Assembly (NCBI GenBank): GCA_020852405.1
Contig: JADZAX010000146.1
Coordinates: 1 to 34,982, forward strand
Length of the DNA: 34,982 nt
Origin: Verrucomicrobiales bacterium
GTDB taxonomy: Bacteria > Verrucomicrobiota > Verrucomicrobiia > Verrucomicrobiales > DEV007
Reading direction: 5' to 3'
Of this stretch, positions 1 to 34,837 are shown in pieces. The position numbers and the translations under genes were made by a program. Each line of letters opens with the position of its first letter. The first letter of the stretch is position 1. Below the pieces are notes generated by a model, which saw nothing but the letters and a program-made list of their open reading frames with translations, was not told the origin of the DNA and ran no database searches.

Positions 1-77
1 AGACCACGTTCTTTCGCCCAACGACCATTGCCATCCATGATGATGGCGATGTGTTTTGGAATTTTTCGGCTGACCAT
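1..77 (-). CDS. uppS: Undecaprenyl diphosphate synthase (isoprenyl transferase), N-terminal fragment running off the left edge
   Basis: Reverse complement from ATG at 77 translates [26 protein letters not shown], the highly conserved UppS N-terminal motif [13 protein letters not shown]. Not in the ORF track because it is truncated by the window edge. Confidence 0.93.
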
Positions 78-311
78 AGACAACGGGGGTGGGCTTTCTC
101 CGCATGCGCGGATACCATACACCGGGTGACAAATCAATCGCGGAGTGCGCGATCACGCCACTCTCCCGTAAGTGGAAACCCTTGGCAGCACGTCAGGGGC
201 TTTCCTTGGCGCCGTCCAAAAATCGCTCCCAAAGAGCTGTTCGAGCGTTTATTTTCCTGATTCAATCTTGAAACCTGCCTCGCCAGGATGGGTTGAAAGT
301 GTGTCAGCCTC

Positions 312-1874
312 ATGAAAGATTCCCTTTTGCCTCTTTTGTTTTTGCTGACTGCGGTGCCCGGACAGGCTCTTCCGGCCCCGGTGGCGGATCGTCCCAATAT
401 CCTGCTGATCATGGCGGACGATCTTGGTTTTTCGGATCTTGGGTGTTATGGATCGGAGATCTCCACCCCCCATCTCGATGCCTTGGCGTCGGAGGGGCTT
501 CGCTTCACCCAGTTTTATAACACCGCCAAATGCCACAGTTCGCGGGTGTCTTTGCTGACAGGATTGTATTGCGATCAAGCCGGGGCGGAGTCGCTGGCCC
601 GCGGGGCGACCATCGCCGAGACTCTTGGCGCGGCAGGCTATTTCACGGCGATGGTCGGGAAATGGCACCTCAGTGGTCAGCCCACCGATTTTGGGTTCCA
701 GCGCTACTGGGGGCATCTTTCGGGGGCCACCAGCTATTTCACGGGCGACGGTTCGTTCCGGCTCGACGGGGCCAACTGGGAAGTGCCTCCGCAGCTGAAC
801 GGCCACCCTTTCTACACCACCCGGGCCAATGCCGACTTTGCGATCGATTTTCTGAAGCAACACCGGGATTCCGACGATGGTCGGCCATTTTTGCTCTACA
901 CGGCTTTCAATGCTCCTCACTACCCTTTGCAGGCGCCCGAAAAAATGGTGAAAAAATACAAAGGCCGCTACGACAAAGGGTGGGATGCGCTGAGGAAAGA
1001 GCGACAGCAGAGGCAGACCGACTCCGGTTTGCTCCCGGAGAAATGGGAGTTGAGTCCGCGCCCGGACCACATCCCGGCATGGGATTCCTTGGGAGAGGCC
1101 CAGAAAAAGTGGGAAGCAAGCAGAATGGAAGTGTTCGCTGCGATGGTTGATCTGCTGGATCACAATGTGGGCCGCCTTGTGACTTGGCTGAAAGAGAACC
1201 GCCTTTACGAAAACACCCTGATTCTGTTTTGCTCGGACAATGGGGCCTGCCCATTCGAACGCACCAAAGGCCGGGCTTTTCCTCCGTGGGATTCCCGGAG
1301 CCATTGGACCTACGATGCCAGTTGGGCTCATCTGGGCAACACGCCGTTTCGGCTTTACAAACAGAACCAGCACGAAGGGGGGATATCCTCCCCTCTCATT
1401 GTCCATTGGCCTGCCGGTCTGAAAACCCAACCCGGGACAACGACGAACCAACCCGGCCACCTCATCGACATCCAGGCCACCCTGATGGAGATCGCCGGTG
1501 CCGCCTATCCGTCGCAAATCGGAAAACGCAGCATCGATCCCTTGCAGGGGAAGTCCCTTCTGCCGATTTTTCGTGGGGAAACCCGCGAGCCTCACGGGAC
1601 CTTGTATTTCCACTTCTCGAACGACCGGGCCCTGCGCCAGGGGCCGTGGAAGCTGGTCTCCGCCAAAGGAGGCCGTTGGGAACTCTACCATCTGGATGAC
1701 GACCGCACCGAGCTACATGACCTCGCGGCCTCCCAGCCCGAAAGGGTGAAGCAGATGTCCAACGAGTGGCTCCGTCTCGCCCGCGAGTTGGATCGTCTGC
1801 CGGCGAACCAACTCAAGCCGGTCAAGGACAACTTGACTCCCCTCCGTTTTGAAAAAGGGGACCCCGGTAATTGA
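312..1874 (+). CDS. Sulfatase (arylsulfatase-like, alkaline phosphatase superfamily), secreted
   Basis: Signal peptide, RPNILLIMADDLGFSDLGCYGSEISTPHLDALASEGLRFTQFY, then KCHSSRVSLLTGLY at the formylglycine position, GKWHLS, and LILFCSDNGA. Confidence 0.95.
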   Translation: MKDSLLPLLFLLTAVPGQALPAPVADRPNILLIMADDLGFSDLGCYGSEISTPHLDALASEGLRFTQFYNTAKCHSSRVSLLTGLYCDQAGAESLARGATIAETLGAAGYFTAMVGKWHLSGQPTDFGFQRYWGHLSGATSYFTGDGSFRLDGANWEVPPQLNGHPFYTTRANADFAIDFLKQHRDSDDGRPFLLYTAFNAPHYPLQAPEKMVKKYKGRYDKGWDALRKERQQRQTDSGLLPEKWELSPRPDHIPAWDSLGEAQKKWEASRMEVFAAMVDLLDHNVGRLVTWLKENRLYENTLILFCSDNGACPFERTKGRAFPPWDSRSHWTYDASWAHLGNTPFRLYKQNQHEGGISSPLIVHWPAGLKTQPGTTTNQPGHLIDIQATLMEIAGAAYPSQIGKRSIDPLQGKSLLPIFRGETREPHGTLYFHFSNDRALRQGPWKLVSAKGGRWELYHLDDDRTELHDLAASQPERVKQMSNEWLRLARELDRLPANQLKPVKDNLTPLRFEKGDPGN

Positions 1875-1911
1875 ACCGGCCCCTGCTCCGTACCACCTCA
1901 TGTCTCCCCTC

Positions 1912-3372
1912 ATGAAGCTCCTTTTCCACCGCCAATGGCGGGGCATTTTCCTTGCTGTTTTGTTGGTGACAGATCCTGTGCGGTCCGAAGAAGCCGAGTG
2001 GCGGGTTTGGACCAGCACGTTGGGAACTTCCACCAAGGCGGTCCTGATCGGTGCTGCCGCGGACTTTGTCATGCTCCGACTGGAAGATGGCCGGGAGGTG
2101 CGGGTCGAGCTGCTGCAGTTGAGTGAACCGGACCGCTCCTACGTGGAAGCAAAGCGGGTTTTGCTGAGCCGGAGTCCGGCCTCTGCAGCGGCTGCGTCGG
2201 CATCCCCCATGAATCCATGGCCGGAGCAGGTTGGGACTTCCCGGCCGATTCTTTTGGCGGGTGCCGGAAGGGAGTATGAGACGCCCCATTTCATCTTCCG
2301 CACCGACGAGGCCGTGGATGGGACCTTCGTGAGGCGGGCGGCAGCCATTTTCGAAGACACCCTTGGCTTGGTGGATGCCGTGCCACTGGACCTGCGTCCC
2401 TCGCCGCCCGAAGGCATGGATCGGTTTGTGATCGACTTCACCAGCCGGAGACAATTTGATGCCGCAGTGTCCAAGGATTACCGCCTGATTCCGGGGCAGA
2501 AAGTCTTTGGGGTGTATCTCACCTCGCAGCGCCGCGTCCTGGTTCCCTACGATGCGATCTGGGATGAGGTGAAGCGGTCAGGTGGCGGATCCGGTGCTCT
2601 GGTGCATGAAGTTGCCCACCAAGCGATGCATGAATGGCTCCCTTTTCTGCCGGTGTGGTTGACGGAAGGACTGGCAGAGTGTTTTGCGGTGGTTCCATTG
2701 AATCCGGATGGCTTTGATCTCAGCAGATCTGAGGAAGGCCTGAAGTATGCACTGTCGGAGCGCTACCGGACCCAAACCCCGGTGATGCAGGCGCCCGGGG
2801 TCACCTTGGCACCGGAGAATTTTTCCGCCTGGAAAGACGAGGCCGACCGCTATCTCTCCGCCCTGCTGACCACTTACTTCTTCATGCATCTGGATGGGAT
2901 GGAACGAGGGCGGCCTCTGGCGGATTTCCTGAGCACCATCCGGAAGTCCAAAGATGACACCCGGCAGTTCATTGCGGACTACAACCAAGCCGTGGCGGAG
3001 TTTGAAAAGAAACGACTGGCGCACAATGCCGCTGTCGAGCAGTACAACCGCGAGGTCGATGCCTACAATGCGAAGGCGCTGGCGGCTTCCCCGGGAGGGG
3101 CGGTCACGATCCGGGGAGCGGGGAGTGCGGGCAAGATTATGGTGGGAGGCGGGACGTTGCCTCCGACGCCCGTGCCTGTTTTGGAAGTGCCGGAAATCAT
3201 CCGGCGCAACCAGGGCCGGAACACCAAGTTGGACATCGTGGCCCTGGCCAATGACGCGGCCCGCCCCAGCCTGATCCGGGGACGCAGCTTCGCCCAATTG
3301 GAATCAGAGATGAAGGCGGCCTATGCCCGCATCGGCATCACGGTGACCTTTGCCCCGCAAGGCAGTCCCTGA
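1912..3372 (+). CDS. SHD1-like domain plus HEXXH gluzincin-like peptidase domain protein (secreted)
   Basis: ORF 1849..3372; start more likely at 1900 or 1912 (MKLLFHRQWRGIFLAVLLVTDPVRS signal peptide), since 1849 overlaps the sulfatase. N-terminal EWRVWTSTLGTSTKAVLIGAAADFVMLRLEDGREVRVELLQLSEPDRSYV resembles SHD1; HEVAHQAMHEWLPFLPVWLTEGLAE resembles a zinc-peptidase HEXXH...E site. Confidence 0.75.
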   Translation: MKLLFHRQWRGIFLAVLLVTDPVRSEEAEWRVWTSTLGTSTKAVLIGAAADFVMLRLEDGREVRVELLQLSEPDRSYVEAKRVLLSRSPASAAAASASPMNPWPEQVGTSRPILLAGAGREYETPHFIFRTDEAVDGTFVRRAAAIFEDTLGLVDAVPLDLRPSPPEGMDRFVIDFTSRRQFDAAVSKDYRLIPGQKVFGVYLTSQRRVLVPYDAIWDEVKRSGGGSGALVHEVAHQAMHEWLPFLPVWLTEGLAECFAVVPLNPDGFDLSRSEEGLKYALSERYRTQTPVMQAPGVTLAPENFSAWKDEADRYLSALLTTYFFMHLDGMERGRPLADFLSTIRKSKDDTRQFIADYNQAVAEFEKKRLAHNAAVEQYNREVDAYNAKALAASPGGAVTIRGAGSAGKIMVGGGTLPPTPVPVLEVPEIIRRNQGRNTKLDIVALANDAARPSLIRGRSFAQLESEMKAAYARIGITVTFAPQGSP

Positions 3373-4667: not shown

Positions 4668-7600
4668 TTAACACGTGCCGGAAGCTGTCGCAATCCGGGC
4701 TTTTTCGGCTTCGACAGCAGATTTTTTCAGGGCTTGCCCACGTGCCTCGACCATGCGGTAGAGGACGGGAAGGAGTACCAGAGTCAGGAAGGTGGAACTG
4801 AGAATGCCACCGATGACCACGGTCGCGAGAGGGCGCTGGACTTCGGCCCCGGCACCGGTTCCGATGGCCATCGGAATGAATCCCAGACTAGCCACCAGCG
4901 CGGTCATCAGGACCGGACGGAGCCGGGTGACCGCCCCCGCAAGGACCGCGTCGACCACTGAGAACCCTTCGTTCCTCAGTTGGTTGAAGTAACTGATCAG
5001 CATGACGCCATTGAGCACGGCCACCCCGCAGAGGGCGATGAAACCCACCGCCGCGCTGATGCTGAATGGCATCTCCCGCAGCCAGAGGGCGGCCACTCCA
5101 CCGGTCATGGCGAGGGGGATACCCGTGTAGACCACGAGGGACTGCTTCACGCTTTGGAAAAGAGTCAGGATCAGCACGAAGATGACCACCAGGGCGACGG
5201 GAACGATGATGGTCAGCCGCTGCCGGGCCTCTTGGAGATGCTCGAATTGTCCTCCGAAATCCACCGAGATGGACTCCGGCAGAGTCTTCATTTCCAAAAG
5301 CCGGGCCTTTGCTCCGGCGACAAACCGTTCCGCGTCCGTCCCTGGAAGCAGGTCGACATTGATGGCGATCCGGCGGCGCGCGTTTTCGCGACCGATGACA
5401 TCAACCTGGGCCGTGGTTTCCAGTTTCGCGACTTTGCCCAGCGTGATCAAGGCGCCGTCCCGGGTGCGCACCGGGAGATTCAGGATCACGTTCTCATCGC
5501 GGCGGAGTTCCTCGGGTAGGCGGACCACGATGTCCCGCCGACGATCGTGTTGCAGCAGAATGCCGCATTCATATCCGGCGAGGGTGGAGTGAATTGTCGC
5601 GTTGGCTTCTTCCGCATCGACATTGAGCCGGGCCATGGCGCCATGATCTAGACGGATTTCGAGGACGGGGACGCGGCCTTCCGATTCGAAGGCCACTTCA
5701 TTGGCACCGGACTGGCTTTCCAGGGCGGATTTGACTTCCTCGGCGGCCCGCTCCATTTCGTCGAAATTTTCGCCGAAGATTTTCACACTGAGATCGGCCC
5801 GGCTCCCTTCCAGCATCTCGTTGAACCGCATCTGGATCGGCTGGGCAAAGTCGAAGTTCTGTCCCCCGACCTTTTGATCGAGCGTTTCCCGGACGATTTC
5901 CTCCAGCCGGTCGCGGGAGACGGGCTTGCCGTTTTCCTGCCGCCATTCTTTGGGATCTTTGTAGAAGATGTAGAGATCATATTCCCCCGGGGCCATGGGA
6001 TCGGTGGCGACCTCGCTGGTGCCGATGCGGGCGAAGGTCCGCGTCACTTCCGGGAAGTCCGCGAGCAGCACTTTCTGGGTGGCCAGACACCGGTTCAAGG
6101 AGGTCGTTAGATTGGTCGAGGCCGGTTGGTAAACCATGGCGGTCCAGGATCCCTCATTGAGGGTGGGAACAAACTCCTGCGGCAGCTTCCGGGCTCCCCA
6201 GACTGAGGCGGCGCAGACGATGATGGCCCCTGCGATGACCCCGTAGCGGGTTGACCAGGCAAGGCCGAGAATGCGGCGGTAGAACGTCTTGACCCCGTGC
6301 ATGAGGAAGTTTTCTTTTTCCGAAACATTCCCGAAGAGGAGCAGCGAACAAAGGGTAGGCATCAGGGTCAGCGCAAGCACCAAAGCGCCTCCGAGGGCCA
6401 GCATCACGGTGATGGCCATGGGATGGAACATTTTTCCCTCCACCCCGGAAAGAGCGAGGATCGGAATATATACGATCGCGATGATGAGCACGCCGTAGAA
6501 CATGGGGCTGGCCACCTGCTGGGCGGCATCGCGGACCGCGTCGGTGCGTTCCCGGAGGTTCAAAGGACGTCCCAGTTCGGCCTGCCGGTGGCCGAGGACG
6601 CGGACGATGTTTTCCACCATGACCACCGCACCATCAATGATGAGGCCGAAATCGACTGCCCCGAGGCTCATCAGATTTCCGGAAACGCCGAACCGTGCCA
6701 TGCCAAGGATGGCGAAGACAAAGGCGAGCGGAATCGCCAGGGCCACGATGATGGCGGCGCGCCAGTTGCCAAGCAACAACAGGAGCACCACGACGACCAG
6801 AATCGCCCCTTCGGAAAGGTTTTTTTCAACGGTCTCAATGGTCCGATCAACCACCGCGGAACGGGTGTATTGAATCCGTGTTTCCATGTCGGGCGGCAGT
6901 TTTTCCTGAAGTTGCTTCAGCTTTTCTTCGACCCGCAGCGCGATGGTGCGGCTGTTTTCGCCGACCAGCATCATCACGGTTCCCAGCACGGCTTCCTCGC
7001 CGTCCTCTGTCGCCGCTCCCGTCCGGGTGGCAGATCCGATCACGACCTCGGCGAGATCACCGACCTTGAGGGGCTCGACGCTCGCGGCGAATTTGACGGG
7101 AAGTTGGGAGATCGCCTCTTTGTTTTCCACCCGCCCCACCCCGCGAAGGAGAATCCGCTCTTCCCCCCGTTCGATGATACCGCCGCCGGTGTTGTCGAGA
7201 TTGTGGGCCACGGCTTCGGCCAGTTCATCAAAGGTCAGTCCGGCGTTCATCAGCGCGTCCGGGCGCGGTTCGATCACGATCTGGCGGTCATAACCACCGG
7301 AACTGTTGATTTCCGCCACACCGGGAATGGAGAGCATGAATGGTTTGACCACGTAGTCATGGACATCCCTCAGTTCCATCAACTGCTCCTTGCGGGGCCG
7401 TTGCCGTTGCGGGGTGCCGCTTTTGTAATCCAGCGTGTAATAGAGGATCTCCCCGAGGCCTGTGCTGACGGGCGACATTTCCGGGTGGACCCCGTCGGGT
7501 AATTCGGCATTGGCGAGTCTTTCGCTGACCAGTTGGCGGGCGCGGTAGACATCGGTGCCGTCGTGGAAGACCAGCGTGATCTGGGAAAGACCGGACTTCG

Positions 7601-7856
7601 TGATGGAACGGAACTCCTCGACTCCCTGGATCCCCCTCAGTTGTTGTTCGAGAGGGAAGGTGATCAGTTTTTCGATTTCTTCCGGCGCCAGGGCATTGAC
7701 GCTGGTGTTCACCTGCACCTGCGTGTTGGTGATGTCCGGAACCGCGTCAATGGGAAGGTGGAGGGCGGACCAGATACCTGCCGAGAGAAGCAGCAGGGCC
7801 CCCATGATGACAAGGAGACGTTGTCGGAGGGAAAACTCGATGAGTGCGGCAAGCAT
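4668..7856 (-). CDS. czcA: Heavy-metal efflux RND transporter, CzcA/CnrA-type
   Basis: 1062 aa; RND architecture; TM4 motif VDFGLIIDGAVVMVENIVR matches the DFGxxxDGAxxxxEN signature of divalent-cation (Zn/Co/Cd/Ni) HME-RND pumps. Confidence 0.93.
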   Translation of the reverse strand: MLAALIEFSLRQRLLVIMGALLLLSAGIWSALHLPIDAVPDITNTQVQVNTSVNALAPEEIEKLITFPLEQQLRGIQGVEEFRSITKSGLSQITLVFHDGTDVYRARQLVSERLANAELPDGVHPEMSPVSTGLGEILYYTLDYKSGTPQRQRPRKEQLMELRDVHDYVVKPFMLSIPGVAEINSSGGYDRQIVIEPRPDALMNAGLTFDELAEAVAHNLDNTGGGIIERGEERILLRGVGRVENKEAISQLPVKFAASVEPLKVGDLAEVVIGSATRTGAATEDGEEAVLGTVMMLVGENSRTIALRVEEKLKQLQEKLPPDMETRIQYTRSAVVDRTIETVEKNLSEGAILVVVVLLLLLGNWRAAIIVALAIPLAFVFAILGMARFGVSGNLMSLGAVDFGLIIDGAVVMVENIVRVLGHRQAELGRPLNLRERTDAVRDAAQQVASPMFYGVLIIAIVYIPILALSGVEGKMFHPMAITVMLALGGALVLALTLMPTLCSLLLFGNVSEKENFLMHGVKTFYRRILGLAWSTRYGVIAGAIIVCAASVWGARKLPQEFVPTLNEGSWTAMVYQPASTNLTTSLNRCLATQKVLLADFPEVTRTFARIGTSEVATDPMAPGEYDLYIFYKDPKEWRQENGKPVSRDRLEEIVRETLDQKVGGQNFDFAQPIQMRFNEMLEGSRADLSVKIFGENFDEMERAAEEVKSALESQSGANEVAFESEGRVPVLEIRLDHGAMARLNVDAEEANATIHSTLAGYECGILLQHDRRRDIVVRLPEELRRDENVILNLPVRTRDGALITLGKVAKLETTAQVDVIGRENARRRIAINVDLLPGTDAERFVAGAKARLLEMKTLPESISVDFGGQFEHLQEARQRLTIIVPVALVVIFVLILTLFQSVKQSLVVYTGIPLAMTGGVAALWLREMPFSISAAVGFIALCGVAVLNGVMLISYFNQLRNEGFSVVDAVLAGAVTRLRPVLMTALVASLGFIPMAIGTGAGAEVQRPLATVVIGGILSSTFLTLVLLPVLYRMVEARGQALKKSAVEAEKARIATASGTC

Positions 7857-31635: not shown

Positions 31636-33504
31636 ATGCACTCTCGTTCGCTGATCGCCGCCGTCCTCGCCCTCCTTTCCGCCCTGCCGCTCGGCGCCGC
31701 CGAGCGGGTCGCCCTCGTGATCGGGAACGACGCCTACCCCGCCTCGGTGGACCCGGCCACGCAGCGGCTGCGCGAGGTGAAGCTGGAGAACTGCGTCAAT
31801 GACGCGACCGCCGTGCGGGACATGCTGCGCGACCAGCTCGGGTTTCCGGCGGAGGGCATCATCTTCGGGCGGGACCTGACCCGGACCCAGATCTACCAGA
31901 AACTGGAGGCCTTCAAGAAAGCCGCCGCCGGGTCCGAAATGGCCCTCGTCTTCTACGCCGGACACGGCATGGAAAGCCTCGACGGACGGGAGAATTTCAT
32001 CATCCCGGTCGATGCCGACCTCGTCGGGGCGGGGGAGTCCGAGGCGCTGCTGCGGGGCACCGCGGTGAATCTGACGGAGGTCCTCGGCTACGTCACCAAG
32101 GCCACCGGCGGTCCCAAGGTGGTGCTGCTGGACTGCTGCCGGGACCGCCCGGCGAAGCGGACCGCGACCGGCAAGGTCGCCGAGGGCGGGGGCCTGGCGC
32201 AGTTGCCGGAGGACCAGATCCCGGCGGACACGCTGATCCTGCTGGCCGCCGCGCCGAACAAGCAGGCCAGTGACGGGCGGGGTCACGGGCCGTTCACGGC
32301 GGCGCTGCTGGCGAATCTCCCGGCGCGGGGGCAGAATCTCCTCGACGCCTTTTTCAAGGTGAGCGACGCGGTCCAGGAGGCGACGGGGAAACAGCAGATC
32401 CCCTGGCTGAAGTTCGACGGCTCGGGAACGATCTTCCGGCAGAGCGCCCTGGTGACGGGGAACGCGCCGGTCGTGGCGCCCCCGGGGCCGGTGATGAACA
32501 CGGCGGAACTGGCGGCGCGGGATCGTCAGATCGAGGAATTGAAGGCGCAGATCGCGAAGATGGCGCGGGAGAGCACGGGCCGGGCCGACCAGGCGGCGGA
32601 GCTAGCGGTGGTGAAAGAGCAGCTCACGGCGATCCAGGAACAGATCAAAAGCAAACCGGCGGTCACGATGACGCCCCCGGCGTCTCCGGCGACGAAGCCG
32701 TCAGATCAGTCCAATACGTCCCATACGACCTATACAACAGGCCTGGACCGGGGCGCCATTGGGGACTCAAGGAGCTTCGAGATCGGCGGGGGGCAGAAGG
32801 TGGTCCTGAAATACGTGCCGGGCGGGGAGTTTCTGATGGGGAGTCCGGAAGGGGAACAAGATCGGAGCGACGACGAGAAGCAGACGCGGGTGACGCTGAG
32901 CAGCCATTACTGGATGGGAGAGACGGAGGTGACGCAGGGGCAGTGGGAGGCGGTGATGGGGAGCAACCCGAGCAATTTCAAGGGGGCGACGCTGCCGGTA
33001 GAGCAGGTGAGCCACGACGACGCGGTGGCCTTCCTCGGGAAACTGAACGCGCAGAGCCGGCCGGCGTCCGGGTGGCGGTGGGCGTTGCCGAGCGAGGCGC
33101 AGTGGGAGCGGGCGTGTCGCGGGGGCACGGAGACGGTGTTCAGCTATGGGAACAGTCTGGACAGCACGCAGGCAAACTTCGACGGGAACTATCCCTACGG
33201 AAACGGGAAGAAGGGGCCGTATTTGGAGAAGACGGCGGCGGTGAAATCCTACGCCGCCAACGGGTATGGGCTGTATGACATGCACGGGAATGTGTATGAA
33301 TGGTGCGCGGACTGGTATGGCGAGACGCTCCCCGGCGGAGTGGATCCCCACGGTCCTAAGACTGGCTCCAACCGCGTGGGCCGCGGCGGGTCGTGGGGCA
33401 ACCGCGGCAGGAACTGCCGCTCCGCCTACCGCTTCTGGTTCACGCCGGACTTCCGGGACTACTACCTGGGGTTCCGCTTGGCCGCAGTTCCCGAGGAGCG
33501 GTAG
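31636..33504 (+). CDS. Secreted caspase (peptidase C14)-like + FGE/SUMF1 (C-type lectin-fold) fusion protein; candidate DGR target protein
   Basis: Signal peptide; AERVALVIGNDAYP, MALVFYAGHGMESLDGRENFIIPVDAD (His), VVLLDCCRDRP (Cys); Ala/Glu-rich linker; FGE domain VVLKYVPGGEFLMGSPEGE...HYWMGETEVTQGQWEAVMGSNPSNFKG...LPSEAQWERACRGG...YDMHGNVYEWCADWYG...RVGRGGSWGNRGRNCRSAYRFWFTPDFRDYYLGFRLA. Confidence 0.92.
   Translation: MHSRSLIAAVLALLSALPLGAAERVALVIGNDAYPASVDPATQRLREVKLENCVNDATAVRDMLRDQLGFPAEGIIFGRDLTRTQIYQKLEAFKKAAAGSEMALVFYAGHGMESLDGRENFIIPVDADLVGAGESEALLRGTAVNLTEVLGYVTKATGGPKVVLLDCCRDRPAKRTATGKVAEGGGLAQLPEDQIPADTLILLAAAPNKQASDGRGHGPFTAALLANLPARGQNLLDAFFKVSDAVQEATGKQQIPWLKFDGSGTIFRQSALVTGNAPVVAPPGPVMNTAELAARDRQIEELKAQIAKMARESTGRADQAAELAVVKEQLTAIQEQIKSKPAVTMTPPASPATKPSDQSNTSHTTYTTGLDRGAIGDSRSFEIGGGQKVVLKYVPGGEFLMGSPEGEQDRSDDEKQTRVTLSSHYWMGETEVTQGQWEAVMGSNPSNFKGATLPVEQVSHDDAVAFLGKLNAQSRPASGWRWALPSEAQWERACRGGTETVFSYGNSLDSTQANFDGNYPYGNGKKGPYLEKTAAVKSYAANGYGLYDMHGNVYEWCADWYGETLPGGVDPHGPKTGSNRVGRGGSWGNRGRNCRSAYRFWFTPDFRDYYLGFRLAAVPEER
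33376..33480 (+). repeat. Candidate DGR variable region (VR) at the 3' end of the caspase-FGE gene
   Basis: GSWxNxxRNCRSAxRxxxxPDxRxxxLGFRL scaffold; most putatively variable positions use NNC codons (ggc, aac, cgc, ggc, tac, ttc, ttc, ttc, gac, tac, tac) compatible with AAC codons in a template repeat. Confidence 0.6.
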
Positions 33505-33574: not shown

Positions 33575-33587
33575 CCCGCGAAGCGGG
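33575..33587 (+). other. Small GC hairpin downstream of the candidate VR (terminator-like)
   Basis: CCCGC-GAA-GCGGG, followed by cggaaaatttttct. Confidence 0.4.
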
Positions 33588-33632
33588 CGGAAAATTTTTC
33601 TAAGAAGTTGAGACAATTCCCGGACAACACCG

Positions 33633-33785
33633 ATGGCTTACGCGTTTTTCAAAGTGCCTTGCACCCCTGAGCCCGGGGCCTCCGACTTGCTGAACGATTT
33701 TTTGCGGAGGCACTCCGTGCTCGCGGTGGAAAAGCAGTGGGTGGGAAGCGGGGAGGCTTCCTTTTGGGCGTTTTGCATCCAGTAA
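33633..33785 (+). pseudogene. Truncated N-terminus resembling the HRDC-type DGR accessory ORF
   Basis: ATG at 33633 to TAA at 33785: MAYAFFKVPCTPEPGASDLLNDFLRRHSVLAVEKQWVGSGEASFWAFCIQ*; 50 aa, missing from the ORF track. Resembles the FFxIP...ELNxFLxxHRVLxVExxFVxxGxxSxWxxCV N-terminus as I recall it for these accessory proteins. Confidence 0.55.
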
Positions 33786-33800
33786 TCCCCCGAACCCGTC

Positions 33801-33897
33801 TCAGGCCAGGATCGGGCGCACCACTTCGCCGTGGACGTCGGTGAGGCGGAACTCGCGGCCCTGGTATTTGAAGGTCAGCCGCTCGTGTTTGTTGGTC
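33801..33897 (-). pseudogene. C-terminal fragment of a DUF1501 protein
   Basis: Minus strand reads [31 protein letters not shown], the usual DUF1501 C-terminus ((L)[29 protein letters not shown]); a TGA interrupts the frame just upstream. Confidence 0.7.
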
Positions 33898-34051
33898 CAT
33901 CATCACTGCGGATTCCATTGACTGTGTGTGAAAACCAGTATTTCAGGACTGCCTACGAATTTGAAAGGGATTCGGATCACAGTATTTTTTTAGATCGGTC
34001 GTTGAATTCTATTGCCACGCTCAAGCATTCCAACTAGGAGGGGTTGGACCA

Positions 34052-34837
34052 ATGAAAAGCGAGAAAACCTTGAGTGGAGACGGAGGATTGTTTCCAGAAA
34101 CAGATTGGGAGGCACTAGGGCACCTGAAACTCACCAATGGAGATGCGCCAGGATTGGTGGATCGACTCTCCCGTGCGTATTGGCGTCCACTTTGGATTGT
34201 GGCCCAGAACCGTGGATTGAACAGTGAAGATGCCCGAGACGCTGTCCAAGGTTTTTTTCTGCATGCGATTACCACATCCCTCTTTACCAAACCCACTGAG
34301 GCCTTGGGGAGATTTCGCAGTTATCTCTACCGGTCTTTCTGCAACTACTTGGCTGGCTTGCGCCGGAGGGAGGTGGCGGCCTCGCGAAGGCCCAGGAAGG
34401 GACTTGTCTCACTGGACGAACTTGATTCGGGAGAAGTCGAAGGTCGGGGCGGCTTCGCTGACCCCTCATTCACTGATGAAGAGGACAGGTTTCGAACTGA
34501 ATGGACTATTGCCTTGATTCATAAAACATTGTCAAGATTGCGTGAGGCCTGTGAATCCAAATCCAGGATGACGCACTTTGACGTTTTTAATGAATGGTTG
34601 GTCCTTCCTGTTTTGGATCCAGAAGCGGCGCGTTCGCCAAGCGGCAAGCGGACGCTTGCTGAATTGGCGCAGAAGTATCGCCTGACAGTGAAACAGGCTT
34701 CCAATGTCGTGGTCACGATGAAGCGAGCCTTTCGTAGAGCCCTTCACGAGGAATTGAATGAATTGCCCCTGACCGAGACCTCACTCTCCATCCAAGTGAG
34801 GGAAGCTCTTTCCATGCTTGAGATACATTCTGATTGA
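34052..34837 (+). CDS. Sigma-70 family (ECF-like) RNA polymerase sigma factor, PVC type
   Basis: LVDRLSRAYWRPLWIVAQNRGLNSEDARDAVQGFFLHAI (region 2-like); LAELAQKYRLTVKQASNVVVTMKRAFRRALHEEL (region 4 HTH); good SD aggagg upstream. Confidence 0.75.
   Translation: MKSEKTLSGDGGLFPETDWEALGHLKLTNGDAPGLVDRLSRAYWRPLWIVAQNRGLNSEDARDAVQGFFLHAITTSLFTKPTEALGRFRSYLYRSFCNYLAGLRRREVAASRRPRKGLVSLDELDSGEVEGRGGFADPSFTDEEDRFRTEWTIALIHKTLSRLREACESKSRMTHFDVFNEWLVLPVLDPEAARSPSGKRTLAELAQKYRLTVKQASNVVVTMKRAFRRALHEELNELPLTETSLSIQVREALSMLEIHSD

Follow-up and report, generated by a model that had tools for sequence, protein, structure and literature searches.

Gene content around the caspase-FGE gene

The window analysed here is the entire contig C146 (34,982 nucleotides) of a Verrucomicrobiales genome of 5.1 Mb that consists of 648 contigs and is 83% complete. 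A gene on its plus strand (31636..33504) codes for a protein of 622 amino acyl residues that combines a caspase domain (Peptidase_C14; Pfam PF00656, E=6.6e-30) with an FGE-sulfatase domain of the C-type lectin fold (PF03781, E=1.9e-42). At its 3' end this gene contains a variable repeat (VR; 33361..33495, plus strand) with 72% identity to the TR of G480, a genome of the same family; we refer to it as the target gene. Downstream of it, on the same strand, a hairpin (CCCGC-GAA-GCGGG, 33575..33587) is followed by an A4T5 tract (33591-33599). A spacer of 128 nt separates the stop codon of the target gene, which ends at 33504, from an open reading frame at 33633-33785 on the plus strand that encodes a peptide of 50 residues; position, strand and translation are exactly those given in an earlier, sequence-only reading. 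Taken alone, a length of 50 residues carries no meaning. None of the models in Pfam and NCBIfam matches the peptide, so that routine annotation would miss the ORF, as that reading had expected.

Past the end of the ORF, at a distance of 15 nt and on the opposite strand, lies the stop codon of a truncated gene (33801..33899, minus strand), which we take to be of the DUF1501 type. Its 3' end, with a translation of 32 residues, is present and the gene is cut at about position 33899. This piece has many paralogues within its own genome, which match the window at about 33801-33890 with identities of approximately 75-85%. From 33903 to the contig end at 34982, the GC content falls from about 0.65 to 0.50, and this low-GC stretch includes a sigma-70-like gene (34052-34837). 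No HRDC domain is found in any frame of the whole window and no reverse transcriptase (RT) of the type encoded by diversity-generating retroelements (DGRs, bacterial systems that diversify proteins) anywhere in it, the contig ending 1.2 kb downstream of the 50-residue ORF. Given this contig end and the incomplete, fragmented state of the genome, a cassette situated elsewhere may be missing from the assembly.

Homologs of the 50-residue peptide and their genomic context

A profile (HMM) built from 20 N-termini of HRDC-type DGR accessory proteins, with the peptide itself left out, matches the 50-residue frame with E=3.9e-17 (60 bits), and this is its sole match among the 788 stop-to-stop frames of the window. 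When the same residues are shuffled (n=5000), the top score is 8.7 bits. With the peptide as sole query, a search of 390 genomes from this phylum yields matches at 16 places, distributed over 13 other genomes and with E values from 6e-10 to 0.009; every match is the N-terminus of an HRDC accessory gene. At each of these places, tblastn on the surroundings detects a DGR-type RT close by and an FGE gene nearby, and a recognisable TR is also present at most of them. The sequence-only reading had taken the peptide for the N-terminus of an HRDC-type DGR accessory protein and had in advance let this assignment depend on homologs being tied to reverse transcriptases; both are supported by these 16 places. 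The idea that the ORF is a chance frame unrelated to DGRs, which its shortness and the missing match to a curated family might suggest, is refuted by the profile match and by 70% identity to a syntenic gene.

The same places are recovered when the full-length HRDC accessory protein of a complete DGR from the same genome (contig C565, see below) is used as query. Pairwise BLASTP of the peptide against this C565 accessory gives no match, the N-terminus of the latter being only 27% identical, and as far as sequence comparison goes the link between the two is revealed only by the profile and by closer relatives. A PDB profile search with the peptide gives no meaningful match, a scan with the peptide alone finds no relative, and none of the searches turned up a close relative that shares the short ORF. 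A single-sequence AlphaFold2 model of the 50 residues is weak (mean pLDDT 60) and suggests a strand-helix-strand-strand arrangement.

Intact relatives clarify what is missing from the window. In G434, a member of the same family, a caspase-FGE gene is followed after 150 nt by an accessory gene (locus L134) that starts with MAYAFFRVPSAPEAGAVDELNRFLRSHSVLAVQREWVSAGDGSFWAFCIQYGETGQ and runs into the HRDC domain as far as the end of its contig. The window peptide shares 35 of 50 residues (70%) with this accessory protein (pN 0.19, pS 0.79, pN/pS 0.24). Over these first 50 codons the window gene is free of frameshifts and internal stops and has kept the conserved residues; then CAG-TAA in the window stands against CAG-TAT-GGC in the relative, and similarity stops there. 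The earlier statement that the HRDC part is gone is thus borne out by the syntenic comparison that the same reading had proposed. Of the features that characterize HRDC-type DGR accessory genes, the window shows the homologous N-terminal domain; a C-terminal HRDC domain and an adjacent DGR RT are both absent from it. As no frame of the window encodes an HRDC domain, the ORF is a remnant rather than a working member of this group.

The complete cassette of G428 (locus L179) consists of a caspase-FGE gene, an accessory gene with HRDC, an RT gene and a TR, in this order. Target and accessory gene are separated by 127 nt in this locus and in that of G480 (L180), versus 128 nt in the window. Among the relatives the usual order is target - accessory - RT - TR, and some loci have target - RT - TR - accessory; the order target - accessory - TR - RT given in the sequence-only reading therefore has to be corrected. 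In G428 there are also several copies of the caspase-FGE gene that have no accessory piece. Contig C275 from the genome studied here carries a second caspase-FGE gene (1032-2915 of locus L017; 68% identity to the window gene), and an accessory remnant is lacking downstream of it.

The variable repeat, the hairpin and the DGR on contig C565

Comparison of the window VR with the TR of G480 reveals differences at 21 of 34 TR adenines versus 17 of 101 other bases (Fisher p=1.6e-6), and each of the 13 AAC codons of this TR corresponds to NNC in the VR. If VRs are compared with VRs, the asymmetry is much weaker (p=0.01 to 0.04). A C-type lectin/FGE fold is present at the C-terminus of the target. 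Judged by the AAC-to-NNC pattern, the VR of the caspase-FGE gene is probably genuine, and this pattern supports this part of the earlier reading independently of the peptide. A TR fitting the window VR is not found in its own, 83% complete assembly.

A hairpin with a GCGAAGC core and an A/T tract precede the accessory ATG in the window as well as in the same-family cassettes L134, L179 and L180, and the hairpin on C565 has the form GCGTAGC. The hairpin published for DGRs has a stem of 7-10 bp and a GRNA loop of 4 nt and is located 4-34 bp from the VR (PMC3240598). In the window, the stem comprises 5 bp, the loop is a GAA triloop and the structure lies 70 nt past the stop codon of the target gene, so that loop and distance differ from the published ones. 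We consider the element at 33575-33599 a putative counterpart, in the form of a triloop variant, of the published post-VR hairpin.

A complete HRDC-type DGR is encoded on contig C565 (positions 1-3308, locus L015). It comprises an accessory gene (208-657) whose product carries an HRDC domain (PF00570, E=1.2e-16), an RT gene (654-1952), an FGE target gene (1949-2896), a TR near 1661-1793 and a VR near 2661-2793; the VR departs from the TR at 14 of 28 adenines and at 0 of 105 other bases. The contig begins inside another VR copy. Both this DGR and the window locus have an FGE target, and C565 possesses in addition the HRDC accessory, the RT and the TR. In contrast to the window, however, its target lacks a caspase domain, its TR is a different one and its accessory N-terminus is the distant one mentioned above. 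The C565 TR is ruled out as donor of the window VR, because non-adenine positions outside a shared core and the 3' end differ, and by its sequence the C565 DGR is not the partner of this VR. Other RTs of the genome, encoded on contigs C7, C347 and C643, were rejected as DGR RTs since their sequence and context look group II intron-type.

Cassette remnants and the origin of the window locus

Accessory fragments are also encountered in relatives. Our survey employed the N-terminal profile only, and scars retaining other parts of a cassette are not counted in it. Behind FGE target genes, 5' fragments of accessory genes that are not followed by HRDC or RT comprise codons 1-31 in L190, 1-37 in L191, 1-40 in L192 and 1-24 in L195. 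In L124, a caspase-FGE gene is followed by accessory codons 1-31 joined to a piece of an RT gene, and L183 has suffered an internal deletion of the cassette in which the TR was kept. In G422 (L177), the VR, its 3' flank and the first approximately 26 accessory codons are duplicated (5529-5890 and 7272-7640), with flanks more than 95% identical; this duplication is recent. The duplicate sits where the TR would be expected and is followed by an apparent transposase gene, and a VR-to-TR conversion has possibly disabled this DGR. As seen by eye, L189 (1950-3600) has kept the accessory N-terminus and the TR, with an apparent REP-associated (RAYT-like) transposase in the place of the RT. Nearly all scars comprise the accessory gene from its start onwards, they end at differing codons and there is no conserved stop; such varied breakpoints are more in line with debris than with a short protein that is conserved.

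Taken together, the 50-residue ORF is very probably what remains of the 5' end of an HRDC-type DGR accessory gene and, as such, the scar of a cassette that was lost by deletion or by copying of the target with its flank. It thereby lends the VR call independent support, in agreement with the sequence-only reading. The ancestral locus would have consisted of a caspase-FGE target with its 3' VR, the hairpin, an accessory gene encoding the N-terminal domain and HRDC, the RT gene and the TR. The RT, aided by the accessory protein, would have copied TR RNA with mutagenesis at adenines, and the cDNA would have taken the place of the VR. In the lineage of the window, everything past accessory codon 50 is missing and the sequence joins the 3' end of the DUF1501-type gene. 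Two routes might have led there, either a deletion of the cassette at this place or a copying of the target that took along its 3' flank and the accessory gene as far as codon 50. What seems to remain is an orphan target, a VR that retains the mutation signature and a non-functional scar.

The second route, according to which no cassette ever existed here, is a sub-case of the same explanation that differs only in the origin of the remnant, and we give it somewhat less than an even chance. The duplication in G422, the caspase-FGE copies of G428 that lack an accessory piece and the variable endpoints of scars that nearly all begin at the accessory start speak for such copying. On the other hand, a donor cassette whose accessory is closely similar is not present in the assembly, that of C565 being only 27% identical at its N-terminus, and in L124 and L183 it is internal deletions that have affected the cassettes. 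An assembly artefact, i.e., a contig that is chimeric between 33783 and 33900 while the real accessory gene continues, seems unlikely, although two breakpoints fall inside 120 bp, the end of the contig is 1.2 kb away, the GC content drops after 33903 and assemblies are frequently interrupted at DGR repeats. With identities to its paralogues of only about 75-85%, the DUF1501-type piece is no collapsed repeat; other parts of the window have a low GC content too, and comparable truncations exist in other genomes.

There is also little to be said for a functional mini-accessory, in which the 50 residues would by themselves make up a complete small domain and continue to assist an RT encoded at another place in the genome. 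The frame is open and conserved, its stop coincides with the end of the conserved N-terminal block, the weak model suggests strand-helix-strand-strand and a complete DGR exists on C565. However, this cassette has a full accessory of its own, the same short ORF was not found in a close relative and the scars of relatives share no conserved stop, which makes this reading very improbable. Equally improbable is the notion that the domain is kept as a stand-alone docking module for orphan targets and might, for instance, bring an RT encoded elsewhere to the hairpin behind the VR; if it were true, accessory scars would be functional modules and not debris. Under the preferred explanation of a remnant, the ORF is probably without function and the window VR is presumably no longer diversified. 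Nevertheless, the open frame, the kept residues and the pN/pS of 0.24 leave room for a recent truncation or for some residual function.

A tiny, unannotated ORF can thus serve as proof that a gene belongs, or once belonged, to the DGR targets when RT and TR are gone, and the occurrence of scars behind FGE targets in several relatives suggests a simple tracer for the loss and spread of DGR targets. The targets concerned here are caspase-FGE proteins, a kind linked to conflict systems.

HRDC-type DGR accessory proteins are known, for example, from Treponema denticola (PMC4891356). The N-terminus of the window peptide is homologous to those of the intact relatives analysed here, which carry HRDC (PF00570 in the case of C565) beside a DGR RT. 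In contrast to those proteins, the first 50 residues are all that is kept in the window, and its locus lacks HRDC, RT and TR. Degenerate DGR loci are on record for T. denticola as well (PMC4891356) and for Thiohalocapsa PB-PSB1, where targets are incomplete or remote and some incomplete loci are still diversified in trans (PMC10907252). Similarly to the latter, the window has a VR target beside DGR machinery that is missing or broken, and the same genome possesses a complete DGR as well. Whereas some degenerate loci of Thiohalocapsa PB-PSB1 are served in trans, the incomplete assembly studied here contains no TR that matches the window VR. Degenerate DGR loci are therefore already known, and the window locus is a further example of them.
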